Source: Lachnospiraceae bacterium (GTDB lineage Bacteria > Bacillota > Clostridia > Lachnospirales > Lachnospiraceae). Taken from it: 38,933 bases of DNA. The stretch lies in NCBI GenBank assembly GCA_024692905.1, contig JAILLY010000115.1:1-38933 (forward strand), in the 5' to 3' direction. The notes beneath the pieces were generated by a model. It was not told where the DNA came from and did no database searches. It saw only the letters and a list, made by a program, of their open reading frames with translations. Within the stretch, counting starts at the first letter, position 1. Each line of letters starts with the position of its first letter. This document shows, one piece after another, positions 16,182 to 33,792 of the stretch. The position numbers and the translations under genes were made by a program.

Positions 16182-16952
16182 TTAATGCCTCCGGCCGCAT
16201 CTTGAACACGGTCCGCGTCCTCCAACCTCCGATAACGGGATACAGCTTACGGTCCTCTTAAGTCCCGAGCAGTCAAGCGAGCCATGATAACAGGTACCGT
16301 CCTTCGTGATATACACCGTATTGCCCACACGGGATCCGCATTTTTCACAGGGATAGTACTTATGTCCCGCATCATTTCTGAGTTCACCGAGCATATCCCT
16401 TCCGACCTGCCTTATCGACAGTCTGAGATAGGTACATTCCCTGTCCCTGTGATATACTGTTCCGGTCTCGGTAACAAAGACATATTCCTCACCGTTTTCT
16501 TCGCCGGATACGACATGAAGGCCCTTCTCATATCCGGTATATGTATGCATGAGACACCTTGCGCTGAAACATTTGTCAAACAGCCCGAGCATGTCATAAG
16601 GGAGCAAAGCCCTGTAACCTGCATTTATCTCAATTATCTCGCGGTCATTAAGCCTGCTCATGCCAAGACCGATACCCGATTCTCCATCCCTTACATATTT
16701 AAAACCTTCCCCGGATCCTCTGACCTTACCGATGATCGCCCGCCTGAGCACATCTTCATCCGCATCCCATTTCTCATATGCGGTCATGGCTGTCAGTGAT
16801 GCTTCCTGATGCACGGCCTCCTGGAGGTTTACATGAAACCTCATGAGATTTATGACCGAAAGCACCATAAATACCGCAAACATGAATACGGGAATGACCA
16901 AAGCAGCCTCTATTGTAAGGCTTCCTTTTTCCCGGTACCGGATATCACTCAT
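16182..16952 (-). CDS. TadE-type pseudopilin with two tandem Zn-binding Cys/His modules
   Basis: A 256-residue protein. The N-terminus YREKGSLTIEAALVIPVFMF is a TadE signal with a conserved Glu and a membrane helix, so the rest should lie outside. Residues 165-252 hold two copies of a Cys/His module: copy 1 with YH168, C173, C202 and C205 (ending YYPCEKCG), copy 2 with YH223, C228, C249 and C252 (ending PCSRCG). The pattern Y-H-x4-C ... P-C-x2-C resembles Ada-type and other bacterial Zn-binding modules that read 'YH..C....PC..C'. Two structural Zn2+ are predicted. I chose ATG 16952 (GAGAGG 4 nt upstream), which overlaps the previous gene's stop by 8 bp, rather than the GTG at 16964. The role in the pilus is unknown. 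Confidence 0.85.
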   Translation of the reverse strand: MSDIRYREKGSLTIEAALVIPVFMFAVFMVLSVINLMRFHVNLQEAVHQEASLTAMTAYEKWDADEDVLRRAIIGKVRGSGEGFKYVRDGESGIGLGMSRLNDREIIEINAGYRALLPYDMLGLFDKCFSARCLMHTYTGYEKGLHVVSGEENGEEYVFVTETGTVYHRDRECTYLRLSIRQVGRDMLGELRNDAGHKYYPCEKCGSRVGNTVYITKDGTCYHGSLDCSGLKRTVSCIPLSEVGGRGPCSRCGRRH

Positions 16953-18342
16953 AATACCTCTCACGGGTTATCTCATGAGAATACCCGTATCCGCTCATAA
17001 GTAAAGCCGTTGCCTTAAGATGATCCACACAGCCGTCGATCCTGAACCCGTCATTATTAAATGTCCTGCAGTTTATCTCGATAATATCCATGCATCTCAT
17101 CCTTCTGATATCATCATCCGTTTCGGAAAGAAAGACTCCGAGTATATCCTTATAGTCCGCTCCTTTTCCTCCGCTCATGCCAAGCCTTGACATAAAACCG
17201 GTAAGATCATAAAGCGATACCAGAAGGTCCGGAACCGACTTGTTTACCGGACATCTCCCGCCGGCAAGCAGCCTGCTCACATCCATCGCGGATTCCGCAT
17301 AAGCGAGCGCATATATTATGGAATCCCTTACAAGGGAGGTGAGCATCTCGAGCGGCAGCTCCGGGAACATCATGGCCGCCGCTTCCACGGCTTCAGCGGC
17401 CATAAGATATGCTCCCTCCATCCTTCCTTCATCCGAACGGATACACCGCAGATTATCTCCTTCTCTTATACTCATAAGCCTGCGTACGATCTCAGTCATA
17501 TTATCAATATCCGAATCCCGTCCGCAGATCATGTATTCCAGCTCACCCTTAAGCTGCTGCTCATCCGTGTAACGGGTATAGCATCCCATCTTCTGCATAA
17601 GATATTCAATGAAGGCCTCATCATCACCCTGCCTGATACCGGGAGGCGATCCGTTTCCGGACTTAAGTTCCCTGCAAGACGGAAGGTCAGACATACCTAT
17701 GCGGCCAAGTCCCTGTTCCTTAATAAAATCCTCTTCACTTAATACCATGCTCCTTACTTCCCTTCCGGGATCTTCGACCGGAATGCCGAAGCTGTCGATG
17801 CTGTTAAGTACCGCATCCCATTCGCTTATAAGATCTACAGGTACTATTGCATCGATCGCCGCATGATTACCGTCTATCATGGGAGTGTATGTAAACTCCC
17901 CGTATCCGTTGATATAACCGGAAGCCTGATATTTAAGCACCCTGCCCTTATCATCGCTTGCAAGTTCATATTCATCCTCATTGACCCGGTCAAGACTCTG
18001 CCGGTACCAGTCGGCCTCAGCGTCGGTCCCCGAATAATCGGTATTTGCCGATATATACCGGGACAGATGGTTTATTACACTGCTTATGCCCACCTCAGCG
18101 CTTCCCCTGTAACTTGAATCTATGAACAGAAGATCGTACCGGTTAAACAGATAAACATCATATTCCCCGAAACAGGAACTTAATCCGATATCCATAAGGG
18201 CCTCCGTGTTCATCCTTATAAGCTGAAGCCTTGCACTTTCCGTAAGGACTAAGATAAGCCCGGAAAGAAGCGAGATGATAAGGGCGAGGAATACGGTAAC
18301 TTCACCGCGTACCGTCCGGGCGCTAGACCGCATTCGAATCAT
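16945..18342 (-). CDS. DUF5702-like TadG-type pseudopilin, 465 aa
   Basis: A 465-residue protein with one N-terminal transmembrane helix (GEVTVFLALIISLLSGLILVL, residues 13-33), then a large extracytoplasmic domain. The start RGEVTVFLALI with a conserved Glu resembles the TadE/TadG group of pilus proteins. I recall this type as DUF5702, found in Tad loci of clostridia; the name is unverified. The extracytoplasmic region shows no enzyme motif. It starts within the 3' end of the flp gene (20-bp overlap) and has no good ribosome binding site, so it probably depends on coupling to flp. It ends 8 bp into the zinc TadE gene. Confidence 0.78.
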   Translation of the reverse strand: MIRMRSSARTVRGEVTVFLALIISLLSGLILVLTESARLQLIRMNTEALMDIGLSSCFGEYDVYLFNRYDLLFIDSSYRGSAEVGISSVINHLSRYISANTDYSGTDAEADWYRQSLDRVNEDEYELASDDKGRVLKYQASGYINGYGEFTYTPMIDGNHAAIDAIVPVDLISEWDAVLNSIDSFGIPVEDPGREVRSMVLSEEDFIKEQGLGRIGMSDLPSCRELKSGNGSPPGIRQGDDEAFIEYLMQKMGCYTRYTDEQQLKGELEYMICGRDSDIDNMTEIVRRLMSIREGDNLRCIRSDEGRMEGAYLMAAEAVEAAAMMFPELPLEMLTSLVRDSIIYALAYAESAMDVSRLLAGGRCPVNKSVPDLLVSLYDLTGFMSRLGMSGGKGADYKDILGVFLSETDDDIRRMRCMDIIEINCRTFNNDGFRIDGCVDHLKATALLMSGYGYSHEITRERYYE

Positions 18343-18505
18343 TTACTATTCTTTCAAATATACCGTTTATCAGGGATGTCAGCTGATCCCTGAATATTAC
18401 CGTTAATCCTATGAGGACCACGAGGATCAGGATGAGTTCCACGACTCCGATCCCGTTATCATCCTTTATGAATCTTTTCGTCATCATCAATATGTGCTGC
18501 AGCAT
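18323..18505 (-). CDS. flp: Flp-type pilin prepilin, 60 aa
   Basis: The major pilin subunit candidate. The 60-residue protein has a basic leader (MTKRFIKDDNG) and a hydrophobic helix (VVELILILVVLIGLTVIF). Cleavage after Gly18 would place Glu23 at position +5 of the mature protein, as required for prepilin processing. The mature protein is about 42 residues, in line with Flp pilins. AAAGGA lies 6 nt before the ATG. It lies between tadC and the DUF5702-like gene. It lacks the Glu-Tyr pair of classic Flp, as in the Flp1 type of Gram-positive bacteria. Substrate of the A24 peptidase downstream. Confidence 0.88.
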   Translation of the reverse strand: MLQHILMMTKRFIKDDNGIGVVELILILVVLIGLTVIFRDQLTSLINGIFERIVNDSNAV

Positions 18506-18544
18506 TTATCATCCTTTCCGTTTATAACCTGACATAACCTTTCT

Positions 18545-19957
18545 TTACCTGATCGACATGAAAGCCGGCACCGTTACAAGGGCAAGTACCACAAAGAGCA
18601 TCATGAACATCGGCAGCAACAGCTTGGTACCTGCCTCCCCGCCCAGTTCCATCGCTCGTCTCCTTCGCCTTTCAAAAGCTTCGTTTGCCTCATCCTCAAG
18701 CCTGTGCATCATATCCTGCCTTCCGATGCTGACCGCCTGGGAGATAAGACTTATGAACTGCCTGTATATATGCAGGCCGCAGGCCGAAGCAAATGCCTCA
18801 TATGCAGTAAGCTCACCTGTCCCTTCGTTCATCCTTCCTTCACACAGGAGCATTTCCTCATAAAGGTATCTCCTGCCTCCTCCCCTGTTAAGGGATTCCC
18901 TGTAATCCCTGCAAAGCTTGCTCCATATGCCTCTTGTCGTAAGCCCGGCACAGTAGTACAGCGCGAACCTGTTTATAAGCCCCGGATAATCCCTTATAAG
19001 TTCCGCATCCCTCTCCTTAACCCTGCTGCCCAGTTCACTGTCCTCCCTGAAGTAAATAAGGACCGCGGATAAAAGAACGAGCATCAGTATGATAAGTGAC
19101 TTTCCGTCGGATACTTCCTCATATATTACCCTTCTGCCTTCAACATATCCGGGAAGCTTAAGGCTTTTATCCTCTGAAGTTTCCTTATCCTCCTTTACGA
19201 TCAGTTCGGATACATATTCGGGAAGAGTCACCTCCTTTGCGCTCACCGGAAATATCCTGGCTGAGAATTCAACTTCTCCGGTATAATCCTCATATTTAAG
19301 TTCTGCATGTATCCCTGTAAGGATACCTTCGTTAAAAACCCCGATATCATCTTCATACCGTGTTCTGTTGATCACCCCGTGTGAATCTATCAGAAGCGGA
19401 TCGTCGGTCCTCCATGATATCCTGAAGGGATATCCCTCAAGCCTTTCGGGCAGAACCATATCGGTGCTTATATGGTCAAGAGATCCGTTATCACCTGCTG
19501 CGATCCTTATCAACTCATCCTTTGCTCTTTCGGCCATGGCTTCAAGACTTTCATGATCGTATCTTCTCTCACTTACCGTAATACCTATCACATCTCCCTG
19601 CCCTGCCACTTCCTCGCTTACCTTAAGCCGGACCTTTTTATCTCCTTTGCCGTAATCCGGACGTTCTATCCTGTTTTCTTCAAGCAGTTCGTGCCCTGTC
19701 CCGGCCGTAAGCTCATATCCGAGTGCCAGCAGCGCACCCGCTCCCGCAGCAAACGCAGCAGCTGATACTTTCTTTCTGAAAGATTTAAGGCTTCCTTCAA
19801 GCGGATCCTCCCCGGGATATATCTTCCTCATGCAGGATGCTGTCCTGTCTCCCGTACACAACTTCATAAGCCTGATCAGGCTTCCCCTTGGAAGGATACG
19901 GATCATCACTCCGCAAACGATCCCGGCAAGTGCCGTAAAACCGTATAATACAAGCAT
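18545..19957 (-). CDS. tadC: TadC-type pilus platform protein with an inserted Ig-like domain
   Basis: A 470-residue inner-membrane platform protein of the GspF/TadC group. Helices lie near residues 1-20, 64-82, 287-303 and 444-465. The cytoplasmic domain 305-440 carries the TadC-like stretch (ELIRDYPGLINRFALYYCAGLTT and, later, HRLEDEANEAFERRRRRAMELGG-EAGTKLLLPMF). Unusually, about 200 residues (84-286) separate the second and third helices and should lie outside the cell. Part of this (about 160-240: LPERLEGYPFRISWRTDDPLLI, then HGVINR and a V-F-x-A ending) resembles an atypical bacterial Ig-like domain. TadB and TadC form the platform against which TadA works. GGAGG lies 5 nt before the ATG. 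Confidence 0.88.
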   Translation of the reverse strand: MLVLYGFTALAGIVCGVMIRILPRGSLIRLMKLCTGDRTASCMRKIYPGEDPLEGSLKSFRKKVSAAAFAAGAGALLALGYELTAGTGHELLEENRIERPDYGKGDKKVRLKVSEEVAGQGDVIGITVSERRYDHESLEAMAERAKDELIRIAAGDNGSLDHISTDMVLPERLEGYPFRISWRTDDPLLIDSHGVINRTRYEDDIGVFNEGILTGIHAELKYEDYTGEVEFSARIFPVSAKEVTLPEYVSELIVKEDKETSEDKSLKLPGYVEGRRVIYEEVSDGKSLIILMLVLLSAVLIYFREDSELGSRVKERDAELIRDYPGLINRFALYYCAGLTTRGIWSKLCRDYRESLNRGGGRRYLYEEMLLCEGRMNEGTGELTAYEAFASACGLHIYRQFISLISQAVSIGRQDMMHRLEDEANEAFERRRRRAMELGGEAGTKLLLPMFMMLFVVLALVTVPAFMSIR

Positions 19958-19970
19958 TCATACCTCCGTG

Positions 19971-20708
19971 TCATACCCTGATATCAACGAGTTTCTGTGA
20001 TATATGGCAGGAAACTCCCATTATAAGAAGGCATAAGGTCATCACAGCGGCACCGGCCGGATCATGATACAGTATCCCGAAAAAGTTCCGGCTCGTTACC
20101 CTCAGATAAATTATGATAAGGAAAGGGATAATGCACATTATCTTCTGCTCAAGCTTCCTTCCCGACAGGATAACCCGGATCTCCTTATCCGTTTCCTCTT
20201 TCTCCTTCATCATCCTTACTGTATCCTTTATGATACCTCCGATGTTTCCGCCGTTACGCTTGGCTATCGAAAAAACATCCGCAAAATCCGTGATATCTTC
20301 AACTCCTGCCCTTAAGGCAAAGTCCTTAAGTATATGCTCGAGAGGTACTCCCGAATCAAGCCTTGATATAAATAACCTGACTTCAACGGATATAAGAGCA
20401 TCGTTCCCGTAAAGCCCTGCCATCTCCTTATATGCTTCCCTGAATGCATTTTCCGCGGAAAATCCTGCCTGCATCGAAGCATTTACCGCATCTATCAGAT
20501 CCTTAAACTGATCGGCCAGCTTACGCTTCCTCCTTTGTATCAGTATTTCCTTAACCTTCTTAAGGCATAAACCTCCCGGGAGCATGAGCGGGATCAGTGC
20601 ATAAGGCGAATCGTAGAAGGTATAGGCGATCAGTGCCGCAAGAGCACCGTAAACAACAATAAACCTTATCCATTCACTTACGCTCATCCTGTATACATCA
20701 TATTGCAC
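19971..20708 (-). CDS. tadB: TadB-type pilus platform protein
   Basis: An inner-membrane platform protein of the type II secretion F family. Two hydrophobic segments near the N-terminus (WIRFIVVYGALAALIAYTF and ALIPLMLPGGLCL) are followed by the cytoplasmic F-domain (QFKDLIDAVNASMQAGFSAENAFREA; DFADVFSIAKRNGGNIGGII) and two helices at the end. It partners TadC. The start is uncertain: the frame is open upstream to 20807, deep in tadA. I prefer GTG 20708 because the following QYDVYRMS is, from memory, how homologues begin; ATG 20687 is another choice. It overlaps the tadA stop by 11 bp with this start. Confidence 0.85.
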   Translation of the reverse strand: MQYDVYRMSVSEWIRFIVVYGALAALIAYTFYDSPYALIPLMLPGGLCLKKVKEILIQRRKRKLADQFKDLIDAVNASMQAGFSAENAFREAYKEMAGLYGNDALISVEVRLFISRLDSGVPLEHILKDFALRAGVEDITDFADVFSIAKRNGGNIGGIIKDTVRMMKEKEETDKEIRVILSGRKLEQKIMCIIPFLIIIYLRVTSRNFFGILYHDPAGAAVMTLCLLIMGVSCHISQKLVDIRV

Positions 20709-21942
20709 CAAAGATCCCGGATCTTTTGAGCTTGACCGTGTTTTCAATATCATCCACCCTTTTAAGGCACCCGGTGACCCGGTCACCCTCTCCTTTTGTT
20801 TCCTCAAATTCGTATATTGTCTTCGTCTCTATCCCGTCTTCCGAACAGCCCGTGACCTCTCTTATCTCAAGTACCTTCCTGCTGCCATCCCTAAGCCTTC
20901 CGAGATGCACTATAATATCTATCCCCGATGCCATCTGCCTGCGGAGCGAGGATATCGGGATCGTGGTGCTTAACATCATCATGGTCTCAAGCCTCATAAG
21001 GGCCTCCTGCGCACCGTTTGAGTGTATCGTCGACATCGACCCGTCCTGACCGACGTTCATTGCCTGGAGCATGTCGATAGCTTCGCTTCCTCTTACCTCA
21101 CCGACTATTATCCTGTCGGGCCTCATCCTTAAGGCGGTCCTTATCAGATCCCTTATGCTTATGGCGTTACAACCCTCGATATTTGCATTCCTTGCTTCCA
21201 GCGAGACCAGGTTATCGATCCCCTGAACGGTAAGCTCGGCACTGTCTTCGATCGTGATTATCCTCTCATCCCGGGGGATATAGCCGCTCAGGATATTGAG
21301 TACGGTAGTCTTTCCGGCACCGGTCCCCCCGCTTATTAACAGGTTATATCTGGCCTTTACAAGCTTACCCAAAAATTCAAGCGCCTCCCTGCTTATCGAC
21401 CCCTCCGATATAAGACGGTTCCCGTCAAAGGGGACCTTCGGAAACCTCCTTATCGTCAGTATCGGGCCGTTAAGCGCGACGGGATCGAGCACTACATTCA
21501 CCCTTGATCCGTCCGGAAGCCTTGCATCCACGATGGGAGATGATGAATTGACGGTCCTGTTGGCGCCTGCTACTATCTGCTGGATGATATCCGTAAGCCG
21601 GCGGGCGGAACCAAATGCTCTTCCGCTGTTTATAAGGATCCCCCGCTTCTCGATAAATATAGGGCTCATCCCGTTCACCATGATCTCGGTAACCTCCGGA
21701 TCGTCCATAAGCTCCTGAAGTACATCGAGCCCGCGGATCGAACTGAATACTTCCTTCCTTATGGCGAGCCTGTCTTCAAGGCTTATGGCACACTGACGAT
21801 TCTTAAGCCTTATACGTTCATCTATGAGTTCCCTTACTTCCTTATCGCTTACATCAAACCTTCCCTCCAGATCGCACCTGACTTCTTCGCATATAACCCT
21901 GCCAAGCTCATTCACAGCCGGTATCCCTGTCATATCCTTCAT
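20698..21942 (-). CDS. tadA: TadA/CpaF-type pilus assembly ATPase
   Basis: The motor ATPase of the Tad system. The 414 residues carry an N-terminal helical domain, then MDDPEVTEIMVNG, the Walker A loop SGGTGAGKTT (about 204-213), the Asp box (ITIEDSAELTV), the Walker B region (RMRPDRIIVGEVRG) and the His box (GQDGSMSTIHSN). It powers assembly of the Flp pilus at the inner membrane together with TadB and TadC. I chose ATG 21942 because TAAGGG lies 5 nt upstream; the first ATG at 21963 abuts its own AAGGA with no spacing. It overlaps tadZ by 35 bp. All motifs are intact. Confidence 0.95.
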   Translation of the reverse strand: MKDMTGIPAVNELGRVICEEVRCDLEGRFDVSDKEVRELIDERIRLKNRQCAISLEDRLAIRKEVFSSIRGLDVLQELMDDPEVTEIMVNGMSPIFIEKRGILINSGRAFGSARRLTDIIQQIVAGANRTVNSSSPIVDARLPDGSRVNVVLDPVALNGPILTIRRFPKVPFDGNRLISEGSISREALEFLGKLVKARYNLLISGGTGAGKTTVLNILSGYIPRDERIITIEDSAELTVQGIDNLVSLEARNANIEGCNAISIRDLIRTALRMRPDRIIVGEVRGSEAIDMLQAMNVGQDGSMSTIHSNGAQEALMRLETMMMLSTTIPISSLRRQMASGIDIIVHLGRLRDGSRKVLEIREVTGCSEDGIETKTIYEFEETKGEGDRVTGCLKRVDDIENTVKLKRSGIFGAI

Positions 21943-22927
21943 CAAGTCCCTTAAGTATCTCATTCCTTATATATTTATTAAGCATCCCGCTCCCCCGGCC
22001 GAAAACAGCCCTTTCCATATCCTCGAAATAGGGGAACTTAAGCCTTATTATCCTGCTCCTTATACCCTCACCACCCGGGTATCTTATCAGTGCCTCGTCA
22101 AAATCCTTAAGCTTGGCGACCGAAACTGCATCCCTCCTTACCGGCATATATATGACGCTGCACATGTTCATCAGTTCCATCATCCCCCTTACCTCATCCG
22201 ACAGATCGAGGATGATAAAACCAAACCTCCCGGACATCGCAAGTCCCCGGATAAGCTCGGGCCATACCGACGGATCAACTTCATTAAGCTCGTAAGGGCA
22301 CCTTGCGGGGAGCAGCATCTGCATTCCGTCGGCATCATAAACATATCTTTGCAGTATCAGGTCAAGTTCACCCGGCCTTAAAGAGTATTCGTAAACAAGG
22401 TCCTGAAGACTGAACCCCGGATCGGCATTAAGCAGCTTAAGCAGGCCGTTATATCCTTCCATGTTCACATACAGGGCCTTAACGTCATCACTTAACATCC
22501 TTGTAAGAGCCATGGCATAAGTAGTCTTAAGTGCATGACTTACAGGCGAATAAATACCTATTATCCTGCTGCCTTCATCATTGCCGGATATGCGTGTGAT
22601 ATCCGGTGAAACCGATAAGCCCTCTCCCATGCTCATAAATATTTCAGACACCGGCTGATACTTGAATATATATCCTTCCGTCATTGCCTTATCACGGTCG
22701 GTGGTAAGGATAAAACATTTACAGGACCCCTCACGGACAGGTCCTTCGGCAAAGAACCCTTCGTCCCTTAGCATTATCCGGAAAGGATCGTCACTACGGT
22801 ATTCCTCAAACTTTTCAGGATCGGTGAACAATATAACTTCATAACCGCATTCACTGCGTCTTATACGATCGGCCAGCCTGCTCCCGTATTCACTGTCACG
22901 GTCACAGATCACCATACTGCTGCTCAA
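21908..22927 (-). CDS. tadZ: TadZ/CpaE-like protein with degenerate P-loop
   Basis: A 339-residue protein and first gene of the Tad operon. The N-terminal domain (residues 1-100) resembles a receiver without its catalytic Asp set (MVICDRDSEYGSRLADRIR). The C-terminal domain is a ParA/MinD-like SIMIBI ATPase whose P-loop reads IYSPVSHALKTT: the KTT end remains but the GG-GK part is lost, as in the clostridial TadZ proteins I recall. LSDEVRGMMELMNMCSVIYMP is the later switch region. TadZ localises the Tad machine to a cell pole; ATP hydrolysis may be lost here. The start is TTG 22927, with GGAGG 5 nt upstream; the ATG at 22915 is too far from it. Confidence 0.85.
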   Translation of the reverse strand: MSSSMVICDRDSEYGSRLADRIRRSECGYEVILFTDPEKFEEYRSDDPFRIMLRDEGFFAEGPVREGSCKCFILTTDRDKAMTEGYIFKYQPVSEIFMSMGEGLSVSPDITRISGNDEGSRIIGIYSPVSHALKTTYAMALTRMLSDDVKALYVNMEGYNGLLKLLNADPGFSLQDLVYEYSLRPGELDLILQRYVYDADGMQMLLPARCPYELNEVDPSVWPELIRGLAMSGRFGFIILDLSDEVRGMMELMNMCSVIYMPVRRDAVSVAKLKDFDEALIRYPGGEGIRSRIIRLKFPYFEDMERAVFGRGSGMLNKYIRNEILKGLDEGYDRDTGCE

Positions 22928-23117: not shown

Positions 23118-23149
23118 AAAAAAAATCACCCCGTCATCCGGGGTGATTT
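23118..23149 (-). terminator. Rho-independent terminator of the flagellin operon
   Basis: Read on the minus strand: AAATCACCCC, 7-nt loop, GGGGTGATTT (10-bp perfect stem), then a T-run that extends the stem end to eight T. It lies 20 bp after the fliS stop. Confidence 0.93.
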
Positions 23150-23666: not shown

Positions 23667-24770
23667 TTACTGAAGAAGCTGAAGTGCCTGCTGGGGCTGT
23701 TCGTTAGCCTGCGAGAGCATCGAAGTACCCGCCTGTACCAGCACCTGCAGAGTCGTATATTCAACCATTTCCTCAGCCATGTCAACATCCTTTATCGTCG
23801 AGAAGGACTGGGTAAGGTTTTCCTCAGCCACATCGAGGTTCGATATCGTGTTTTCGAAACGGTTCTCATATGCACCGAGCCTTGACCTTGCCGCCGAGAT
23901 GAATGCGAGTGCCGCCTTGGTCTGCTCGATCGCTTTTTCCGCTCCTTCTTCGGTCCTTACGTCAATACCGGTAAGGCTTAAGTTATCAAGTGAGATCTCG
24001 GGGATGACTATGTTGATCTCCTGGCCTTCCGCAGAGCCGACCTGGATCTTCATTCCGCCTACGCCGTTTATCTCAAGGTTTGATTCCACAGCTCCGTCAG
24101 GAAGGGAAGAATCAGCCTTGACCGTGATCTTCGAACCGTCTGCGTTGGTTATCGTGATCCTGTCATCCACGATATCGATCCTGCCCGTTGTATCAACACC
24201 GTCAACCTGGAGCATCGCATTTGTTACTACCGTATTTCCGTCCGCATCGGTGGATTTGTCAAATGATATCTTATATTCCTTGCCTGTAGGGAAGTCGGGA
24301 TCGTAATCTATGACTTCGACACCGAGCGTATCCGCATAACCCTTAAGCTTCTGGTCGCCGTTTAAGAGGCTCTGTCCGTTATATTCCGTATCCCTTGCGA
24401 TCCTCTGGATCTCGGAGGTAAGCTGCTTCATCTCAGACTGTATCGCTTCACGGTCTTCACTCGTCATAGTACCGTTTGCCGCCTTTATCGACAGTTCGCT
24501 CATCCTCTGGACGATATCCTGGATCTCACCGAGAGCTCCTTCGGCCGTTTCTATGACATTTACCGCGTTGGTCGCATTCTGGTTTGCCCTGTTTAAGCTC
24601 TGGATCTGCGCCCTCATCCTGTTTGAAATAGCCATGCCGGCCGGATTGTCCTTTGCCTTGTTAAGCTTGTATCCGCTGGACATTTTCCTTGTTGATTCCG
24701 CCTGCCTTGCCTCATTACCCCTGAGTACGCCACCCGCTACCATTGCCTGGATGTTTGAATTTACCTTCAT
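23667..24770 (-). CDS. hag: Flagellin
   Basis: A 367-residue flagellin. The N-terminal D0/D1 part is conserved (MKVNSNIQAMVAGGVLRG; STRKMSSGYKLNKAKDNPAG; ARDTEYNGQSLLNG near residue 130), and so is the C-terminal part (ARSRLGAYENRFENTI; DVDMAEEMVEYTTLQVLVQAG; ending QQALQLLQ). The central D2 region (about residues 145-270) is short and Asp/Val-rich. It is the filament subunit exported by the flagellar T3SS. The ATG overlaps the stop of the upstream gene (ATGA), and AGAGGAGG lies 9 nt before it, so flagellin is translationally coupled to the 1033-residue protein. The most similar bacterial name would be hag/fliC. Confidence 0.96.
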   Translation of the reverse strand: MKVNSNIQAMVAGGVLRGNEARQAESTRKMSSGYKLNKAKDNPAGMAISNRMRAQIQSLNRANQNATNAVNVIETAEGALGEIQDIVQRMSELSIKAANGTMTSEDREAIQSEMKQLTSEIQRIARDTEYNGQSLLNGDQKLKGYADTLGVEVIDYDPDFPTGKEYKISFDKSTDADGNTVVTNAMLQVDGVDTTGRIDIVDDRITITNADGSKITVKADSSLPDGAVESNLEINGVGGMKIQVGSAEGQEINIVIPEISLDNLSLTGIDVRTEEGAEKAIEQTKAALAFISAARSRLGAYENRFENTISNLDVAEENLTQSFSTIKDVDMAEEMVEYTTLQVLVQAGTSMLSQANEQPQQALQLLQ

Positions 24771-27700
24771 ACCGCATTTCCTCCTCTGCTTATCAGTTTA
24801 ATGAATGCTTTTGCCGTTTCATACAGATCCGCCGTATCGACATCTGCCTTTCCTTCGCCTTCTTCCCTGGCAAAGTCATTCAGATCGAGCCTGTCGCTCC
24901 TTACAAAATCAAGCTCCTTAACGGTCCTGCCGTCCCGGGATATCATTCCCTCAAGTTCATCTTTAAGAGCCTTTAATCTGTCTGTTCCGTCCTGCCTGTC
25001 GCAGGTTATATAGCCCTTGCATTCCTTGCCTGTCATTATGAATTTGGCTGCGACTCTTCCGTACTCTGCGGTTTCCATCGTCGCCGTTACGCTTCCCTCA
25101 TCGCCCCGGCCGCTCACAAGCCTTAGGTTTATCGATGTCCATTCACCGTCAATGTTCACGGGAACCTCGTAATTCTGCTGCCTTGCAAGGGATCCTGCCA
25201 CGCTCAGTTCCTTATGCATAAGCTTAAGTTCCTTAACGTCAAGCGCTCTTACCGAAGCATCGACCGCATCCTCTGCCGTCTTAAGTGCTTCCTTTGTAAA
25301 CTGCTCATAGGCTTCATCCGCCCTGTCTCTTGCAACGAATTCATCCGCAAGCTTTTCCGCCGCTTTCGAAAGCTTATCCTTTGCACCTGTCCTGTCCGCT
25401 TCATCAAACAGCTTCCCGTATACCCTGCCGCGGTTCATCATAAGATCGTTTGCGGCGAGCAGGTTGTTCACGGTGACAGGCTGGTCAAAGTCACGCAGCA
25501 TTCCGATGACTTTATCATCGGCAGATCTTGCCTCGTTAATAAGGTTCATATCCTCTTTAAGGACTGCTTCCGCCTCCGCTGCCTTATCATATCCTTCCCT
25601 TATCCTGCCTGCGAAGCTCTCCAATGTCGTATTCGTATCAAATCCGGCATTTATCATTCCTTCCGGACTGAGCTTGTCAAGCGTTTCGGATGCAAGGCTT
25701 GCAAGATAGCTTCCTCTTCCCGCAAATGCCGTATCTATCTGCTCGGAGATCGATGTTCCCCTGCGGTTAAGGTCCGTAAGTCCTCCAAACTCATCATCGA
25801 CCGATAAGTCCATTCCCTGCGCCCTGTTGCTCCTTGATGCTGCCAGGAGATTCCTAAGCGTCGGCTCCCCGCCGCTTGAGAGCACGTTTCCGATAAGCTT
25901 TCCGTCGCTTTTCTCTATCTGCCTGAAAAGCCTGTACATTCCGACGAATGCTTCCTTTTCACGGTCGCTTATCTGACCTCTCTCCTCAAGCTTCCTTAAG
26001 AACCGGCTGTACCTTTCGGCCCTGTCCCCGGCCGGAGTCTGTTCAAGCCTGTTTTGGAGTTTGAAGATGTTATCATCTATCGGATTCCCGCCCTCCCTTA
26101 TTATCTCAAGGGTCTTTGCGGGGGTCATGAGTTCCATGACTCTTTCAACTGCCCTGTCTGCTTCCCTGGCCATGTTTATGGTTTCGGGATTTATCGCGGT
26201 CTGCGAATAACCAAGTATCCTGACGGCCTTGCGGTTTGCGTCGTTTAACTCAAATCCGTTGTCCTTAAGTATATCGTCAACGTTTCCGAAAGCCTTGCGG
26301 ATGCTGTCACCCATATCCGCCCTCGGTGCCGTCATCAGCGTTTCGTATGACTTTCCCGCCTTCTCATAGGAGGCTTTAAGTACGTCACCCTCTTTTACGA
26401 GGTTTCCTGCGGTAAACGCATCCGATCTTGTGTTTATACGTCCGAGTATCTCGGCCGGGATCGTCCTGAGCCTTGAGAATACGTCGTTTGTCTGCTTTAA
26501 GATATCGATCCGCTCATCGAGGGTACTTTCGATACCTTCCGTACCTCTTTCATCCCTGTTTATAAGGAGCGGTCCGTAATATGCCCTTTCGGCTTCCTTA
26601 AGCTCTTCGACAAGCTTGCCAAGCGGCTCTGTATCTATCGATATCCCCTGCTTAAGCAGCTTAAGATTTGCTTCCGTGCTCATCATGAGCCTTGTTTCCT
26701 CAAGCTGCCTGCGGGCTGTGATAAGACTGTTCCGTGCATCCTCCGGGATGACTGCGAGCTGCTCATCTTCCTTAACGGCCGATGCATCATAAAGGTTCTT
26801 TATATTAAGTTCCTTACCGGAAGTTACGACTCTCTCAAGTGCTCCGTCCGTGATGCTCTCAGCCTGCTCCATGACTCTTACCGCCATGACGTGATCGGGT
26901 TCAGCCTTGTCTATGCTGCCGTTTACGGGAAGCTTTCCGTCATTTATCGCAACGGCCGAGATATTTACAACGTCAGTAATGGATAAAGGAAGAGTCAGGT
27001 TATTTAGCCTGTCGAGATTCCCTATGGTCTTCTCTGTTATCGGAAGTCCGCTTCTTATGATCCACTCGGCTTCCTTCATGGTCTCTTCGTTAACTTCAAG
27101 CCCTGCGCGTTCTATGATCCCCTCGACCTGGCCTCTGATCTGGTCCATGTCGATGACATCGGCTTTCTTCGCGTAATATCCGTCGGTGCTGTCAAGGTAA
27201 TAACCCCTGGCCTGGCGTCCGTTGCCGGCTCCCGCACTGTATTCGGCCTTATAAAGGTTTGCGATGGTCGGCTCAAGGTCGTTTATGACCATGTATTTCC
27301 TGACATCATCCGAAAGTCCCGTGATGCCTTCCGCCTTACCGGCCGCATCCTTAACGTTCTTTATATTCTCCTCTGTGAGGGGAAGGTCATTGGCCCTGAA
27401 TATCTCCTTAAGCTGCTCGGCTGCGATATCTCCGCCTGCTATCGCGGTTATCTTGTCGTTGGAAAGATCATCGTTAAAGCCTTCAATAACCGTGCCCGAT
27501 TCCGCCAGCCTGGCCTTTAACTTATCAAGAGAGGTGACATGCGTCTCTATATCGGTATCTGTTGCCGATATGCCCTCTTCCTGCATTTTTTTGTAATCTT
27601 CTGCTGACATGGAATTAGACATTACTGCCATGTAGTTTCTCTGTAAGGCAATGTCCTTTTGCCCCGCATCCTGCATTACTTCCTCGGCAGATTTAAGCTC

Positions 27701-27868
27701 TCCCATTCCGTATGCAGCGTTATCCGTAACTGTGCCAGAAATGTCTAATGTAAATCCTCCCGCCTTATCGGTCATCCTGACCGCACTCTTTGTACGGGAG
27801 TTACCGTATGCAGTTTTTTCCATGTCAACATTCCTATCGTGGTGTATATTTCCTGTTTCTATCTTCAT
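24767..27868 (-). CDS. Large helical repeat protein coupled to flagellin, possible FliK-like C-terminus (DUF6240-like)
   Basis: A 1033-residue cytosolic-looking protein with no signal peptide or membrane helix. Its helical body holds at least seven copies of a loose 13-residue motif, roughly x-G/D-x-x-P-T-x-x-N-[IL]-x-x-L (for example NDLPLTEENIKNV, SGLPITEKTIGNL, SGGEPTLRNLLAA, FDQPVTVNNLLAA), at irregular intervals from about residue 160 to 806. The last 150 residues (VPVNIDGEWTSINLRLV; ATMETAEYGRVAAKFIMTG; TDRLKALKDELEGMI-SRDG) recall the FliK hook-length control C-domain. I recall the name DUF6240 but could not check it. Start ATG 27868 has GGAG 6 nt upstream; the GTG at 27880 precedes that site. 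A SigD-like promoter drives it; it overlaps flagellin by 4 bp. Confidence 0.82.
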   Translation of the reverse strand: MKIETGNIHHDRNVDMEKTAYGNSRTKSAVRMTDKAGGFTLDISGTVTDNAAYGMGELKSAEEVMQDAGQKDIALQRNYMAVMSNSMSAEDYKKMQEEGISATDTDIETHVTSLDKLKARLAESGTVIEGFNDDLSNDKITAIAGGDIAAEQLKEIFRANDLPLTEENIKNVKDAAGKAEGITGLSDDVRKYMVINDLEPTIANLYKAEYSAGAGNGRQARGYYLDSTDGYYAKKADVIDMDQIRGQVEGIIERAGLEVNEETMKEAEWIIRSGLPITEKTIGNLDRLNNLTLPLSITDVVNISAVAINDGKLPVNGSIDKAEPDHVMAVRVMEQAESITDGALERVVTSGKELNIKNLYDASAVKEDEQLAVIPEDARNSLITARRQLEETRLMMSTEANLKLLKQGISIDTEPLGKLVEELKEAERAYYGPLLINRDERGTEGIESTLDERIDILKQTNDVFSRLRTIPAEILGRINTRSDAFTAGNLVKEGDVLKASYEKAGKSYETLMTAPRADMGDSIRKAFGNVDDILKDNGFELNDANRKAVRILGYSQTAINPETINMAREADRAVERVMELMTPAKTLEIIREGGNPIDDNIFKLQNRLEQTPAGDRAERYSRFLRKLEERGQISDREKEAFVGMYRLFRQIEKSDGKLIGNVLSSGGEPTLRNLLAASRSNRAQGMDLSVDDEFGGLTDLNRRGTSISEQIDTAFAGRGSYLASLASETLDKLSPEGMINAGFDTNTTLESFAGRIREGYDKAAEAEAVLKEDMNLINEARSADDKVIGMLRDFDQPVTVNNLLAANDLMMNRGRVYGKLFDEADRTGAKDKLSKAAEKLADEFVARDRADEAYEQFTKEALKTAEDAVDASVRALDVKELKLMHKELSVAGSLARQQNYEVPVNIDGEWTSINLRLVSGRGDEGSVTATMETAEYGRVAAKFIMTGKECKGYITCDRQDGTDRLKALKDELEGMISRDGRTVKELDFVRSDRLDLNDFAREEGEGKADVDTADLYETAKAFIKLISRGGNAV

Positions 27869-27904
27869 ATCGTTCTCCACGTGAATGTTTTCCGGTTGTA
27901 ATTT

Positions 27905-27931
27905 ATATCGAACAAATACCGGTATTACTTA
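27905..27931 (-). promoter_or_regulatory. SigD (sigma-28)-like promoter of the flagellin operon
   Basis: Read on the minus strand: TAAG (27931-27928), exactly 15 bp, TTCGATAT (27912-27905). The SigD consensus is TAAA, 15 bp, GCCGATAT, so the -10 matches at six of eight positions with the right spacing. The start of transcription would be near 27898, about 30 nt before the ATG. Confidence 0.7.
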
Positions 27932-27944
27932 ACCCCAAAAAGTA

Positions 27945-27983
27945 AGGGACCGGGGGACGGTCCCTTACCGTCCCCCGGTCCCT
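27945..27983. terminator. 16-bp perfect G-rich hairpin, terminator of glgB, part of a dispersed repeat
   Basis: AGGGACCGGGGGACGG, loop TCCCTTA, CCGTCCCCCGGTCCCT: a 16-bp perfect stem. Read on the minus strand it is followed by TACTTTTTGG, and on the plus strand by TAAATTTTTAG, so it can stop both directions. It closes glgB 15 bp before the flagellar promoter. The 20 bases at 27942-27961 recur exactly at 37459-37478. Confidence 0.85.
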
Positions 27984-29936: not shown

Positions 29937-32900
29937 CTATACTATGAAATCCTTCTCGCGCAGTATTATATAGTCCTCGTCATCATATCTCTTGGCCAGC
30001 AGAACATCCATGAAATGTGACATGTTCTTCTTGTCGACATGGCGGATCGCATTATCCACTATCTCGCGTACTTCCTCAAGCGTTACCACATGCTCGAGCG
30101 TCTGCATGTCACCGATACGGCGGTACAGTGCAAGGACACCCATCTCATCTATCGCATATTCCTTTTCCTTGGCATAGCCCTTGCCGTATGCGACAAGATC
30201 GTCCGTAGTAAATTCCTTAAGCTCTATCCTTGAATTGAATACCCTGTCAAATATATCCAATGAAGATTCGATGACCTTCGCTATACCTTCGGTATCGCCC
30301 TCCATCACAACGAGCACCGGCTCGGTCTCAAGTTCGAGAGCCTCGGCAACTATACGTGCCGACGAAGGCGTAAGTCCCTCGGAGTTTTCGATTATCAGGG
30401 CGCCGTGCCTTAACTTCTTTATCGTAAGAGGAATATCCTTCTTGTTAAGTGCTTCACCCGATATCTTGGCCACCTTGCCCTTGAAGCCGTCTTCGACCGC
30501 CTGCATGACTTTGACCACATCTATCGCTATCGATATTCTGCCTGTTGCCTCGGTTCCGGTAACGAGCACGTTGCCCCTGGCAGGATCCATGTCTATATTA
30601 TCTATGGCATTTACTATCTGAGCCTTCAGCCACTCTATGCCTTCGAACCTTCCGAATACAAGCTGCTCATCCTTGTCAAAGTCACGCTTGCTCACGGGTG
30701 CCTTCTCAAGCTTCATATAACTCGGATGCTTCTTCTTTGCAGCTTTTGGCTCTTCGGTCTCCTCATCTTCCTCGGATTCTATGCCGGCTTCGTAATTGGC
30801 CCTTGCTATGTCGTCATAAGGAAGATCGTTGGTCCTCATTATCCCTTCAAGACCTTCGGGCTGTTCGATGACCTCCATCTCCTCGACTTCACCGTAATCC
30901 TCAAGAGCCTCATAAGGGTATTCGGGAAGTTCGGATGTGATCTCAAAGGCCGCCTTCCTTGCGGCTTCCTCATCCTCCGAATAGGTAAGTTCCTCAGAAG
31001 AAGCCTCTTCATTAAGACCTGCGGTCTCATCACCGAATACTTCCTCCTCGGAATCTTCTATATTCATTATCTCGCGGAAATACATATCTTTGCCGGAACC
31101 GGGATCGGTACTTCCGAGATAGTCAAACTCACCCTTGGTAACGGCGGCTGAAACTTCTATCTTTTTGGGATCGAAGTTCATGTCATCTCCCGGATCATAG
31201 CTTATCTCCATGCTGCTGTAATGATCTTCGGAATTATCTTCAGCCTTTTCTTCGTCATTTCCGGACTCGTCTTTTTCTTCCCCGGATCCCTCTTCGTCCT
31301 CTCCGGTTTCGGTGTCGTTATCTTCGGAATCCTCTTTATCAGTCTCTTCGGGCTCTTCTGTCTCTTCCGGCGTTACATCCTTATCCCCGGACTCATCTTC
31401 GGACTCATCATCGGATCCTTCTTCCGTTTCTTCGTAAGACTTATCTTCGGATTCTTCCACGGACTCATCTCCGGACTCATCTTCGGGTTCTTCGCCGGAC
31501 TTTTCTTCGTCCTTTCCGGACTCATCTTCCGCTTCTTCGTAAGACTTATCTTCTGATTCTTCTTCAGGCTCTTCTTCGGACCTGTCCTCAGCCTTTTCCT
31601 CAGGCTGCTCTACGGACTTATCTTCCGTTTCTTCCTGTTCTTCTTCCGTTTCCTTCTCTTTGGCCGCAGCTTCCTTCACGCTGTCATGCCGCTGTATCGC
31701 TTCTTCGACAGCCTTGTTGATATCCTCTTCCCCGGGATTGTCCTTTTCGTTTAATTCCTCTTCTATCTCATCAACGGGAAGCGGTATCGATATTGTTGCG
31801 GGCTCAACCATCTTAATCTCGGCAGTCCGCGAATAAGGCTTGAATACAGGCTCTATCTCCGGTACCTCGCCCGTATCCTCAAGCGATATCGGTCTTGGCG
31901 GAAGAGGCTTGGCTATATCTTCGATCTCGGGCAGCACGCCCTTTAACTGAGCCATTATATCGGTAGTCTGAACGAGAGACTTCTCCTTTGCTTCACGGAT
32001 ACGTTTCTCTTCATTCTCCCTCTTCTTCTCTTCCCAGCCCTTATATATGCTGTCAAGGTCGTCTTTATATATCTCGTCAGTCTCTTCGTCTGAATCTTCG
32101 TCCGGCTCTTCCTGCGCTTCTTCGACTGATTCTACGGATGATGCTTCCTGTGCCTCTTTAACTGACTCTCCGGCCGGTTCTTCCGGTTCTTCCGGTTCTT
32201 CCATGGATCTTTCCATGGCTTCCGCACCGGCTTCTTCCACGGATCCCTCACCGGCTTCTTCGTCCTTATCAGCCTTAGGAACCTCACCGTTATCCGTGAC
32301 CGTGCTTTCCTCTTTCTTCTTTATATATTCCCTGACATATTCTTCTTCATCCGTGCCCACACCGGAAGCTGCCCCAAACTCACCGGCATCATCCGTGCCT
32401 TGCTTTGAAGTTACCCCGAATTCACCGACATCGTCCGCACCTTCCTTTGGAACTGCACCGAATTCACCCGGATCATCGGAACCGACATTGATCATATGAC
32501 GGGCTTTCATATCCGCAAGCTCATCCTCTGCGGGCATGAAAGTGGTTATCTGAACATCCTCACCGTTTCCGGGAACGTCATCCATCTCATTTTCGGACAC
32601 ATCAAGACCGCTCACGGAAATGACCGGACCGGTGCCGGAGATAATGGGACCGGTACTTTCACTCTCCTCCGGGAGATCCATCGTATCATTCTCATATAAA
32701 CGGTCATAGGATTCCGGATCGGCGCTGAGCAGGACGTTATCATCAAGAGACTGCTCATTTTCCCTTTCAAAGAACTTCTTTATATTCTCCGACAGGCCGT
32801 TCTGGAGGTCCATCGTATTATACATTCCCACATTGACAGGCTGAACCTGGATCGAATCGATCTCGGAAGTGTTGAGCATCTGGGCAGTACGCTGATCCAC

Positions 32901-33773
32901 GGTCGAAACCGGCTCAGCGGTGATCTGCATATCCTGGCCCATCATCGGGATGGGACCGCTCATACCTGCCACAGGTCCCGTCTGAGAGTACATCTGGCCG
33001 TTTGCTCCGGGCGCTGCCATATACGGATCGCTGAATCCCTCCTCATAAGGAGGAACGGGCGGCTGCATGGGTATCTGCTGGAGATTTCCGGCCTGGGGAT
33101 CGGTATCATATATCTGCTGGACAGGGTTCATCTGCATGCTCGAGAGCTTATCGTTCATCGGCTCCTGGCGGCCCTCATACTTAAGCTGCTGCTCCTTGCT
33201 CAGCCTTGTATGCTGCATCTTAAGATCCATGGCCTGCTTAACGTACTTTCCGTCGCCAAACCATAAAATAAGCTCGTCACATTCCTGAACGCAACGAGTC
33301 TCCTGACCTATCTTGTGATACAGATAGGCGAGCTCATAAGCCCACCTCTCCCTGTAGTCTCTCTTCTTGAATTCCTCAAGTACTTCAATACGCTCCTCGA
33401 TGGATACATCAAGGGCTTCATAAAGCTTGTAAAGGAGTATGTACTTGCCGGTATCCTCGGGCGCAAGCCTTACATATTCCTCATATAATTCCTTGGCCTG
33501 CAGGACATCGTTTAACTTGATCGCGAGCTCGCATAGCGCATATACGATCGTCCTTCCGCCGGGGTATCTGTCATAGGCAAGGAACAGGATGTCCCTTGCT
33601 TCTTCGTATTTCTTATTGATCTTATATACTTCACTGACGGTGCAGAGCATTGAAACGCTCCTTACCTTACGCCAGTCGATGGTATCCGCAATATTCATGG
33701 CCTCAGCATATCTTCTCTCACTTATGAGAGACTTGATCTGATCGGCACATATCTGGTATTCGTACTTATCCAA
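29937..33773 (-). CDS. TPR protein with long acidic linker and degenerate AAA-like domain
   Basis: A 1278-residue protein. Residues 1-210 are TPR-like helices (YEYQICADQIKSLISERRYAEAMNIADTIDWRKVRS). Residues 210-1035 form a very low complexity linker: Gln/Pro/Met-rich first, then Asp/Glu/Ser-rich (runs such as EEPEEPEEPAGES, many EDESGDES units). Residues 1038-1278 resemble a AAA domain of the CbxX/SpoVK kind (FGRFEGIEWLKAQIVNAI; LIIENSEGLTPSSARIV). The Walker A region reads GTEATGRIS, lacking the GK-T/S that binds ATP, so nucleotide binding is doubtful. I recall that lachnospiral homologues with TPR plus linker exist; function unknown. I chose TTG 33773 because GAGGTGA ends 5-8 nt before it and DKYEYQI follows, like homologues I recall; GTG 33782 overlaps that site. 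A strong promoter and structured leader lie upstream. Confidence 0.8.
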   Translation of the reverse strand: MDKYEYQICADQIKSLISERRYAEAMNIADTIDWRKVRSVSMLCTVSEVYKINKKYEEARDILFLAYDRYPGGRTIVYALCELAIKLNDVLQAKELYEEYVRLAPEDTGKYILLYKLYEALDVSIEERIEVLEEFKKRDYRERWAYELAYLYHKIGQETRCVQECDELILWFGDGKYVKQAMDLKMQHTRLSKEQQLKYEGRQEPMNDKLSSMQMNPVQQIYDTDPQAGNLQQIPMQPPVPPYEEGFSDPYMAAPGANGQMYSQTGPVAGMSGPIPMMGQDMQITAEPVSTVDQRTAQMLNTSEIDSIQVQPVNVGMYNTMDLQNGLSENIKKFFERENEQSLDDNVLLSADPESYDRLYENDTMDLPEESESTGPIISGTGPVISVSGLDVSENEMDDVPGNGEDVQITTFMPAEDELADMKARHMINVGSDDPGEFGAVPKEGADDVGEFGVTSKQGTDDAGEFGAASGVGTDEEEYVREYIKKKEESTVTDNGEVPKADKDEEAGEGSVEEAGAEAMERSMEEPEEPEEPAGESVKEAQEASSVESVEEAQEEPDEDSDEETDEIYKDDLDSIYKGWEEKKRENEEKRIREAKEKSLVQTTDIMAQLKGVLPEIEDIAKPLPPRPISLEDTGEVPEIEPVFKPYSRTAEIKMVEPATISIPLPVDEIEEELNEKDNPGEEDINKAVEEAIQRHDSVKEAAAKEKETEEEQEETEDKSVEQPEEKAEDRSEEEPEEESEDKSYEEAEDESGKDEEKSGEEPEDESGDESVEESEDKSYEETEEGSDDESEDESGDKDVTPEETEEPEETDKEDSEDNDTETGEDEEGSGEEKDESGNDEEKAEDNSEDHYSSMEISYDPGDDMNFDPKKIEVSAAVTKGEFDYLGSTDPGSGKDMYFREIMNIEDSEEEVFGDETAGLNEEASSEELTYSEDEEAARKAAFEITSELPEYPYEALEDYGEVEEMEVIEQPEGLEGIMRTNDLPYDDIARANYEAGIESEEDEETEEPKAAKKKHPSYMKLEKAPVSKRDFDKDEQLVFGRFEGIEWLKAQIVNAIDNIDMDPARGNVLVTGTEATGRISIAIDVVKVMQAVEDGFKGKVAKISGEALNKKDIPLTIKKLRHGALIIENSEGLTPSSARIVAEALELETEPVLVVMEGDTEGIAKVIESSLDIFDRVFNSRIELKEFTTDDLVAYGKGYAKEKEYAIDEMGVLALYRRIGDMQTLEHVVTLEEVREIVDNAIRHVDKKNMSHFMDVLLAKRYDDEDYIILREKDFIV
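32352..32477 (-). repeat. Three tandem 42-bp repeats in the acidic linker gene
   Basis: Three imperfect 42-bp units (32352-32393, 32394-32435, 32436-32477) encode 14-residue repeats of the form DD-x-GEFG-x-x-x-x-x-G-x. They lie in the linker coding region and keep the frame. Such units expand or shrink by recombination. Confidence 0.75.
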
Positions 33774-33792
33774 CGTGTTCACCTCAGGCAGA

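Follow-up and report, generated by a model that had tools for sequence, protein, structure and literature searches.

What is a protein of more than 1,000 residues doing directly in front of a flagellin gene? The question arises from a 38,933-nucleotide stretch of DNA from a Lachnospiraceae bacterium (GenBank assembly GCA_024692905.1, contig JAILLY010000115.1), hereafter called the window, whose minus strand carries in order glgB, a terminator, a sigma28-type site, a giant gene, a flagellin gene, fliS, and a closing terminator. We find that the giant protein belongs to Pfam family PF19753 (DUF6240), whose Pfam title is only "family of unknown function"; the links drawn here to the T3S4 domain and to paralogs of flagellin and FliS come from the present analysis. 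The sigma28-type site, the linkage to flagellin, the distinct flagellin clade, and the second FliS together indicate, at the level of sequence, a sigma28-type cassette of a giant FliK-like protein with flagellin and FliS partners dedicated to it. A first-pass annotation of this DNA had recognized a large repeat protein with a tail recalling FliK, made together with flagellin, and missed its membership of DUF6240, its kinship with YlqG-type proteins, and the status of its flagellin and FliS as extra paralogs.

The window protein contains two copies of DUF6240 (378.6 bits against a cut-off of 26.6; whole-protein E-value 2.4e-113), and searches of NCBIfam and of PDB sequences with this single protein gave no match. 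For comparison we collected 92 loci, from the 90 genomes of the window's family with strong DUF6240 matches plus two extra MAGs, L034 and L035, the nearest named relatives found (labelled Lachnospiraceae, Butyrivibrio); DUF6240 is matched by 47/47 of the members scanned, which also form alignment A2, while alignment A1 omits two of the 92 proteins, the truncated L042 and the over-long L066. The open reading frame has 1,037 codons, close to the roughly 1,030 residues given at first pass, and translation probably begins at ATG 27868 rather than GTG 27880, giving 1,033 residues, because the conserved initial methionine of the family aligns with M5 of the window protein; this ATG sits 6 nucleotides after GGAG. 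The 13-residue repeats reported for the body are real: a matrix trained solely on 11 13-mers of YlqG-type proteins finds nine places of at least 6 bits in the window protein, whereas 300 shuffles average 1.1 such places and reach 5 at most. The protein begins with a poorly conserved N terminus, continues through two helical-repeat DUF6240 blocks and another helical stretch, and closes with the C-terminal T3S4 domain and its conserved last helix. Conservation along the family peaks in the central repeats and not in the T3S4 domain, and the last helix is kept (of 90 members, 84 have L1019, 79 have Y1020, and 82 have A1023).

Taken as a family, DUF6240 proteins end, by profile and model comparison, in a divergent FliK-type (T3S4) switch domain of about 120 residues. 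The proposed likeness to FliK thus holds at the family level and falls short for the window protein on its own, as detailed below. The Flg_hook model (PF02120) matches 30/47 members at E ≤ 0.1 (best 1.7e-8), and hhalign scores the DUF6240 tail at 96.9% against the FliK C-terminal domain and 97.0% against that of YlqG, with all 24 control pairs (four DUF6240 segments by six unrelated families) at or below 6.2%. In addition, a tail profile made from residues 890-1010 of 90 homologs matches 31/31 FliK proteins, namely that of the window's genome and those of the 30 best-scoring Flg_hook loci (independent E-values 4.5e-9 to 1.1e-4, relating to a small local set of open reading frames), and 33/35 fetched YlqG-type proteins, with L182 and L204 missed. 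The structural searches proposed at first pass likewise return T3S4/FliK domains, with weak E-values: a PDB search with the family profile finds the FliK C domain 2rrl (E 0.033), outranked on another region by a chain annotated a-iTHR-201 (E 0.01), and Foldseek with residues 870-1037 places the PscP switch domain 5cuk on top (E 0.014, probability 0.97) and 2rrl at rank 12 (probability 0.87). In PMC13344023, the FliK C domain is described as acting on the C-domain of FlhB.

We further find that the body of the protein has relatives. In the window's genome, a canonical fliK lies in a fliG-fliI-flgD-flgE operon, and a YlqG-type gene for a protein of 605 residues is flanked by rnhB and the gene for YlqH, a free protein resembling FlhB-C (YlqG, YlqH, and FlhX are putative names, given by gene order and resemblance). 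Judging by profile comparison, the DUF6240 body is related to this YlqG-type second FliK-like protein, a type usually found next to YlqH: hhalign gives 94.0% and 95.6% for the DUF6240 segments against the YlqG body, and the DUF6240 model also matches YlqG-type frames across the class (e.g., on G108:C7). In a class sample, 53/391 genomes have a DUF6240 match, and the smaller-gene loci read (L191-L203) are YlqG-type in 13/13 cases. Three FliK-type proteins (hook FliK, the YlqG type, and the giant) are present in the window's genome, the one in which the fliK operon context was read, and by match counts in most DUF6240 genomes sampled, with at least one Flg_hook match in 90/90 and at least two in 87/90 (the giant itself may account for some of these matches). 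As a trait of the DUF6240 family, the N-terminal G-x-x-[IV]-x-G beta domain of the YlqG type has little in its favour: it was found in 2/92 members by profile and 10/92 by motif, and not in the window protein.

The giant gene is preceded by a site reading TAAG, 15 bp, TTCGATAT, as first noted; we compared TTCGATAT with the consensus of B. fibrisolvens sigma28 sites, as given in PMC3720852. The pattern TAA[AG]-N15-17-[CT]CGA[ACT]A[TA] occurs within 250 nucleotides upstream of 60/92 homologs, compared with 6/444 other frames of at least 220 codons in the same loci; restricted to N15-16 it occurs in 38/92 and 3/444, and an initial stricter pattern gave 12/92, where shuffles averaged 2.65. The pattern was widened after inspection of these loci, where a scored scan showed CCGAAAT and CCGACAT variants to be common, and therefore it is the contrast with control frames that should be trusted and not the raw count. 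On that contrast, the predicted sigma28-type site upstream of DUF6240 genes is present beyond chance. The 4-bp ATGA overlap with flagellin does exist in the window, as do the fliS gene and terminator described after it, but translational coupling was rejected as a conserved family trait, since the exact overlap occurs in 6/86 loci (median gap 38 nucleotides, largest 832).

The linkage to flagellin itself, by comparison, is nearly constant: a same-strand flagellin lies downstream in 86/92 loci and in 86/88 that could be tested. Four of the six misses have a contig edge within 200 nucleotides, leaving L059 (genome G166) and L075 (genome G153) as true exceptions. In L075, the flagellin adjoins the DUF6240 gene on the other strand. 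In G166, no flagellin lies within 4.9 kb of the DUF6240 gene, and a different contig (G166:C17:120561-122349) carries a cassette-type flagellin next to a FliS paralog, so that linkage has been lost and the gene set kept.

A tree of 144 flagellins places all 87 usable flagellins of DUF6240 loci in one clade (support 0.82), which takes in only 2 of 40 other flagellins, from G166 and from G001, where the DUF6240 contig is truncated. The remaining 38 fall outside it, as do 12 flagellins from nine of the 20 flagellated genomes lacking DUF6240 and five from other families. The 40 are alignment-trimmed sequences from 38 of 40 fetched regions (L239 and L256 gave none), picked among top-scoring Flagellin_N matches and not at random. 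Residue 4 is asparagine in 91% of the 87 cassette flagellins and glutamine in 98% of 50 others. By tree position, the cassette flagellin is a distinct paralog. FliS is present in at least two copies in 81 of the 90 DUF6240 genomes, in one copy in eight, and in none in one, compared with a single copy in 20/20 flagellated genomes lacking DUF6240; copy number, position, and lower score, rather than a tree, are the grounds for regarding the FliS of the cassette as a separate paralog.

Across 200 genomes sampled from the window's family, DUF6240 is matched at E ≤ 1e-3 in 92, of which 90 matches are strong (E ≤ 8e-56), and 91/200 genomes exceed the Pfam cut-off, including one of G151 and G120. Every genome with a strong match also has a Flagellin_N match (90/90), so that no strong homolog was found in a flagellin-less genome (0/90), and DUF6240 is found in 90/110 flagellin-bearing genomes; 20 flagellin-positive genomes lack it and 88 lack both. 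The Flagellin_N model also picks up apparent FlgL (frames of about 500-580 residues with weak scores). The weak DUF6240 match of G151 (E 7.2e-4; 72% complete) occurs without a Flagellin_N match and with matches to Flg_hook, YlqH, and FliS. Separately, DUF6240, flagellin, and fliS occur in cassette order in a "Bacteriophage sp." record of human faecal origin that lacks annotation (L325; GenBank MT835518.1, 33922-43011); most likely the virome assembly took in bacterial DNA. Two more records of this kind match DUF6240.

Because of its T3S4 domain, its conserved last helix, and its low cysteine content, we propose that the giant protein is an export switch protein of the FliK/YlqG group, acting as a filament-stage switch or as a gate holder for its partner flagellin and FliS, a role that we regard as probable though far from assured. 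DUF6240 proteins contain 2.6 cysteines per 1,000 residues (FliK 0.85, the YlqG type 1.6, and 285 flanking open reading frames 13.2), a scarcity that fits export. In the proposed mechanism, the protein would be made at the filament stage as the first gene product of the sigma28-type cassette and would itself be an export substrate. Its repeat body may thread through the export gate, and its T3S4 domain may then engage either the C-terminal switch domain of FlhB or the free FlhB-C-like YlqH, an engagement that would set or hold the gate for export of the partner flagellin with FliS. The cassette of this family is without ylqH, and the partner would therefore have to be FlhB or a YlqH encoded elsewhere; a YlqH match at E < 1e-17 is found elsewhere in 86/90 DUF6240 genomes.

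Several observations weigh against this proposal. The cysteine content of DUF6240 proteins exceeds that of FliK. The window protein alone reaches 15.6 bits with Flg_hook (residues 927-993, E 0.014) against a cut-off of 29.8, and 17/47 members scanned have no Flg_hook match at E ≤ 0.1. Three sequences went into the AlphaFold model of residues 870-1037, which reaches a predicted local distance difference test (pLDDT) score of 66.5 and yields no Foldseek match at E ≤ 0.001, and the full-length model is unusable (pLDDT 44.4). The stretch between the repeats and the tail scores 41.8% against YlqG in hhalign, and ylqH was not found among the open reading frames of the 92 cassette loci, window included, some of which are cut by contig ends. 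Genome G120, which is complete and apparently non-flagellated, has a weak DUF6240 match (E 2.7e-5) and no matches listed for Flagellin_N, Flg_hook, YlqH, or FliS. Furthermore, four drafts that are 90-95% complete (G002, G055, G100, and G147) show no flagellin besides that of the cassette, which is therefore not always an extra one; it may sometimes build the whole filament, and drafts may miss genes. These four belong to a set of 12 genomes in which every Flagellin_N match was inspected, eight of the set chosen for having one FliS; G100 and G147 have that FliS in the cassette, whereas in G002 and G055 it was not placed among the matches listed and its weak score fits the cassette copy. Finally, it is from sequence that we infer export, contact with FlhB or YlqH, and an effect on the partner flagellin.

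The high conservation of the central repeats relative to the T3S4 domain could also be explained if the giant protein stayed in the cytosol as a regulator or chaperone, its body binding the partner flagellin, the flagellin mRNA, or FliS and its T3S4 domain merely docking at the gate. The predicted helicity of the large body (from the low-confidence full-length model) and the operon shared with flagellin suit such a role, which we nevertheless think unlikely given the cysteine depletion, weaker as it is than that of FliK, and given that its relatives FliK and PscP/YscP are exported proteins.

Considerably more doubtful is that the protein measures and ends a filament stretch made of the partner flagellin, as at a junction of hook and main filament, and then switches export to the main flagellins. 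It does belong to a tape-measure family, with a median length of 1,017 residues (n = 91) compared with 489 for FliK (n = 31), has a flagellin of a separate clade and an extra FliS as its gene neighbours, and in many genomes coexists with other flagellins; judging from the four drafts described above, however, the partner flagellin can apparently make a whole filament. Flagellar export is usually pictured as having a single specificity switch that a single FliK operates. That one flagellum uses two tape measures, FliK setting the hook and the giant measuring a filament segment and re-switching export through FlhB or free YlqH, is a similarly long shot; if true, these bacteria would have two ordered export specificity switches instead of one.

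Hook-length control, one of the roles suggested at first pass, would suit the T3S4 domain and long body of an alternative FliK redundant with the canonical one, but it is disfavoured because the window's genome already has a canonical fliK in its hook operon, with a YlqG-type gene besides; at least one Flg_hook match, which may in some cases be the giant itself, is present in all 90 DUF6240 genomes, and the sigma28-type site and flagellin/FliS linkage indicate the filament stage, so that we consider this role very improbable. That the gene is a passenger kept by linkage, compatible with the absence of the term DUF6240 from the literature searched, is scarcely credible given its presence in 90/110 flagellin-bearing genomes, its conserved core, and its retention in G166 although the flagellin-fliS pair sits elsewhere.

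An export switch or gate holder thus remains the reading that we prefer, and the pairing of a giant FliK relative with a flagellin and chaperone of its own, seen in many motile relatives of common gut bacteria, suggests a second dedicated control step in filament building. The cassette names the genes on which switch control of filament composition could be tested, and it assigns a testable role to a Pfam family of unknown function. Lachnospiraceae flagellins are studied in gut immunology. Among the papers listed by our literature search, which left most subscription papers outside, we recognized none on DUF6240, on a FliK linked to flagellin, or on a cassette of this kind.

Loci from other families suggest where the cassette came from. 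Five of six large-DUF6240 loci, from four families, have the order giant gene-ylqH-flagellin (a contig end interrupts the sixth), and fliS was seen in four of the five; this order in five genomes suggests the origin of the cassette. At L188 the tail profile has no match, yet Flg_hook matches the same frame (E 1e-4). Besides the giant locus, G466, G513, and G408 show only a fliK-size Flg_hook match and a FlhB-size YlqH match, with neither another free YlqH nor a second FliK-like match, and G220 and G339 carry a further candidate pair.

The flagellated genomes of the window's family that lack DUF6240 have ylqH loci of their own, of which 18 were read (L205-L222, of 20 genomes). In 17/18, an intact frame of 464-535 residues lies directly before ylqH, and in one it is truncated; the frame is a divergent FliK-like candidate, with a weak match to the FliK C domain in 4/18. 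Flagellin or flgE was seen within 4.5 kb in 12/18. Of the other two genomes, G170 (79% complete) has an rnhB-type pair and G113 fell outside the reading.

Coordinates of the cassette are collected in Table 1. Downstream of it on the minus strand, the stretch 16945-21963 resembles a Tad-type pilus locus, with a gene for a T2SSE-type ATPase at 20698-21963 and a DUF5702 gene at 16945-18342. A minus-strand open reading frame of 1,281 codons at 29937-33782 has no Pfam match at E ≤ 1e-5.

Table 1. Features of the giant gene-flagellin-fliS cassette, in window coordinates
Feature	Position	Strand	Basis
Strong terminator between upstream glgB and promoter	27945..27983	minus	17-pair stem and T run; glgB by Pfam match
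Predicted sigma28-type -35 element, TAAG	27928..27931	minus	Sequence reading; enrichment across DUF6240 family
Predicted sigma28-type -10 element, TTCGATAT	27905..27912	minus	15 bp after TAAG
Giant DUF6240/FliK-like gene	24767..27880	minus	1,037 codons from GTG 27880
N-terminal DUF6240 copy, helical repeats	26792..27418	minus	Pfam PF19753, E 1.1e-22
Central DUF6240 copy, residues 393-679, best-conserved part	25844..26704	minus	Pfam and conservation profile
Predicted FliK-type T3S4 switch domain, about residues 890-1000	24881..25213	minus	Profile, hhalign, and Foldseek comparisons
Conserved C-terminal helix LYxxAKxF, residues 1016-1032	24785..24835	minus	Family alignment, model, conservation profile
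4-bp ATGA overlap, DUF6240 gene/flagellin	24767..24770	minus	Sequence reading
Cassette flagellin paralog, 367 residues	23667..24770	minus	Pfam; flagellin tree
Cassette FliS, apparent paralog, 158 residues	23170..23646	minus	Pfam; one of three FliS matches in the window's genome
Terminator closing the cassette	23123..23149	minus	Terminator reading

Compared with known systems, the DUF6240 protein shares with FliK a C-terminal T3S4-type domain, a low cysteine content, and a flagellar setting, whereas it is about twice as long, carries helical repeats, and is encoded in a sigma28-type flagellin cassette instead of a hook operon. The injectisome needle-length switch proteins PscP/YscP supply the top fold match of its C-terminal domain (5cuk, with the weak E-value given above); they belong to another export system, and the comparison is limited to that domain. 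YlqG-type proteins have in common with it both the repeat body and the T3S4 domain, but they are shorter, at 463-718 residues compared with about 1,017, and lie in an rnhB-ylqG-ylqH-yraN locus rather than in a flagellin locus.

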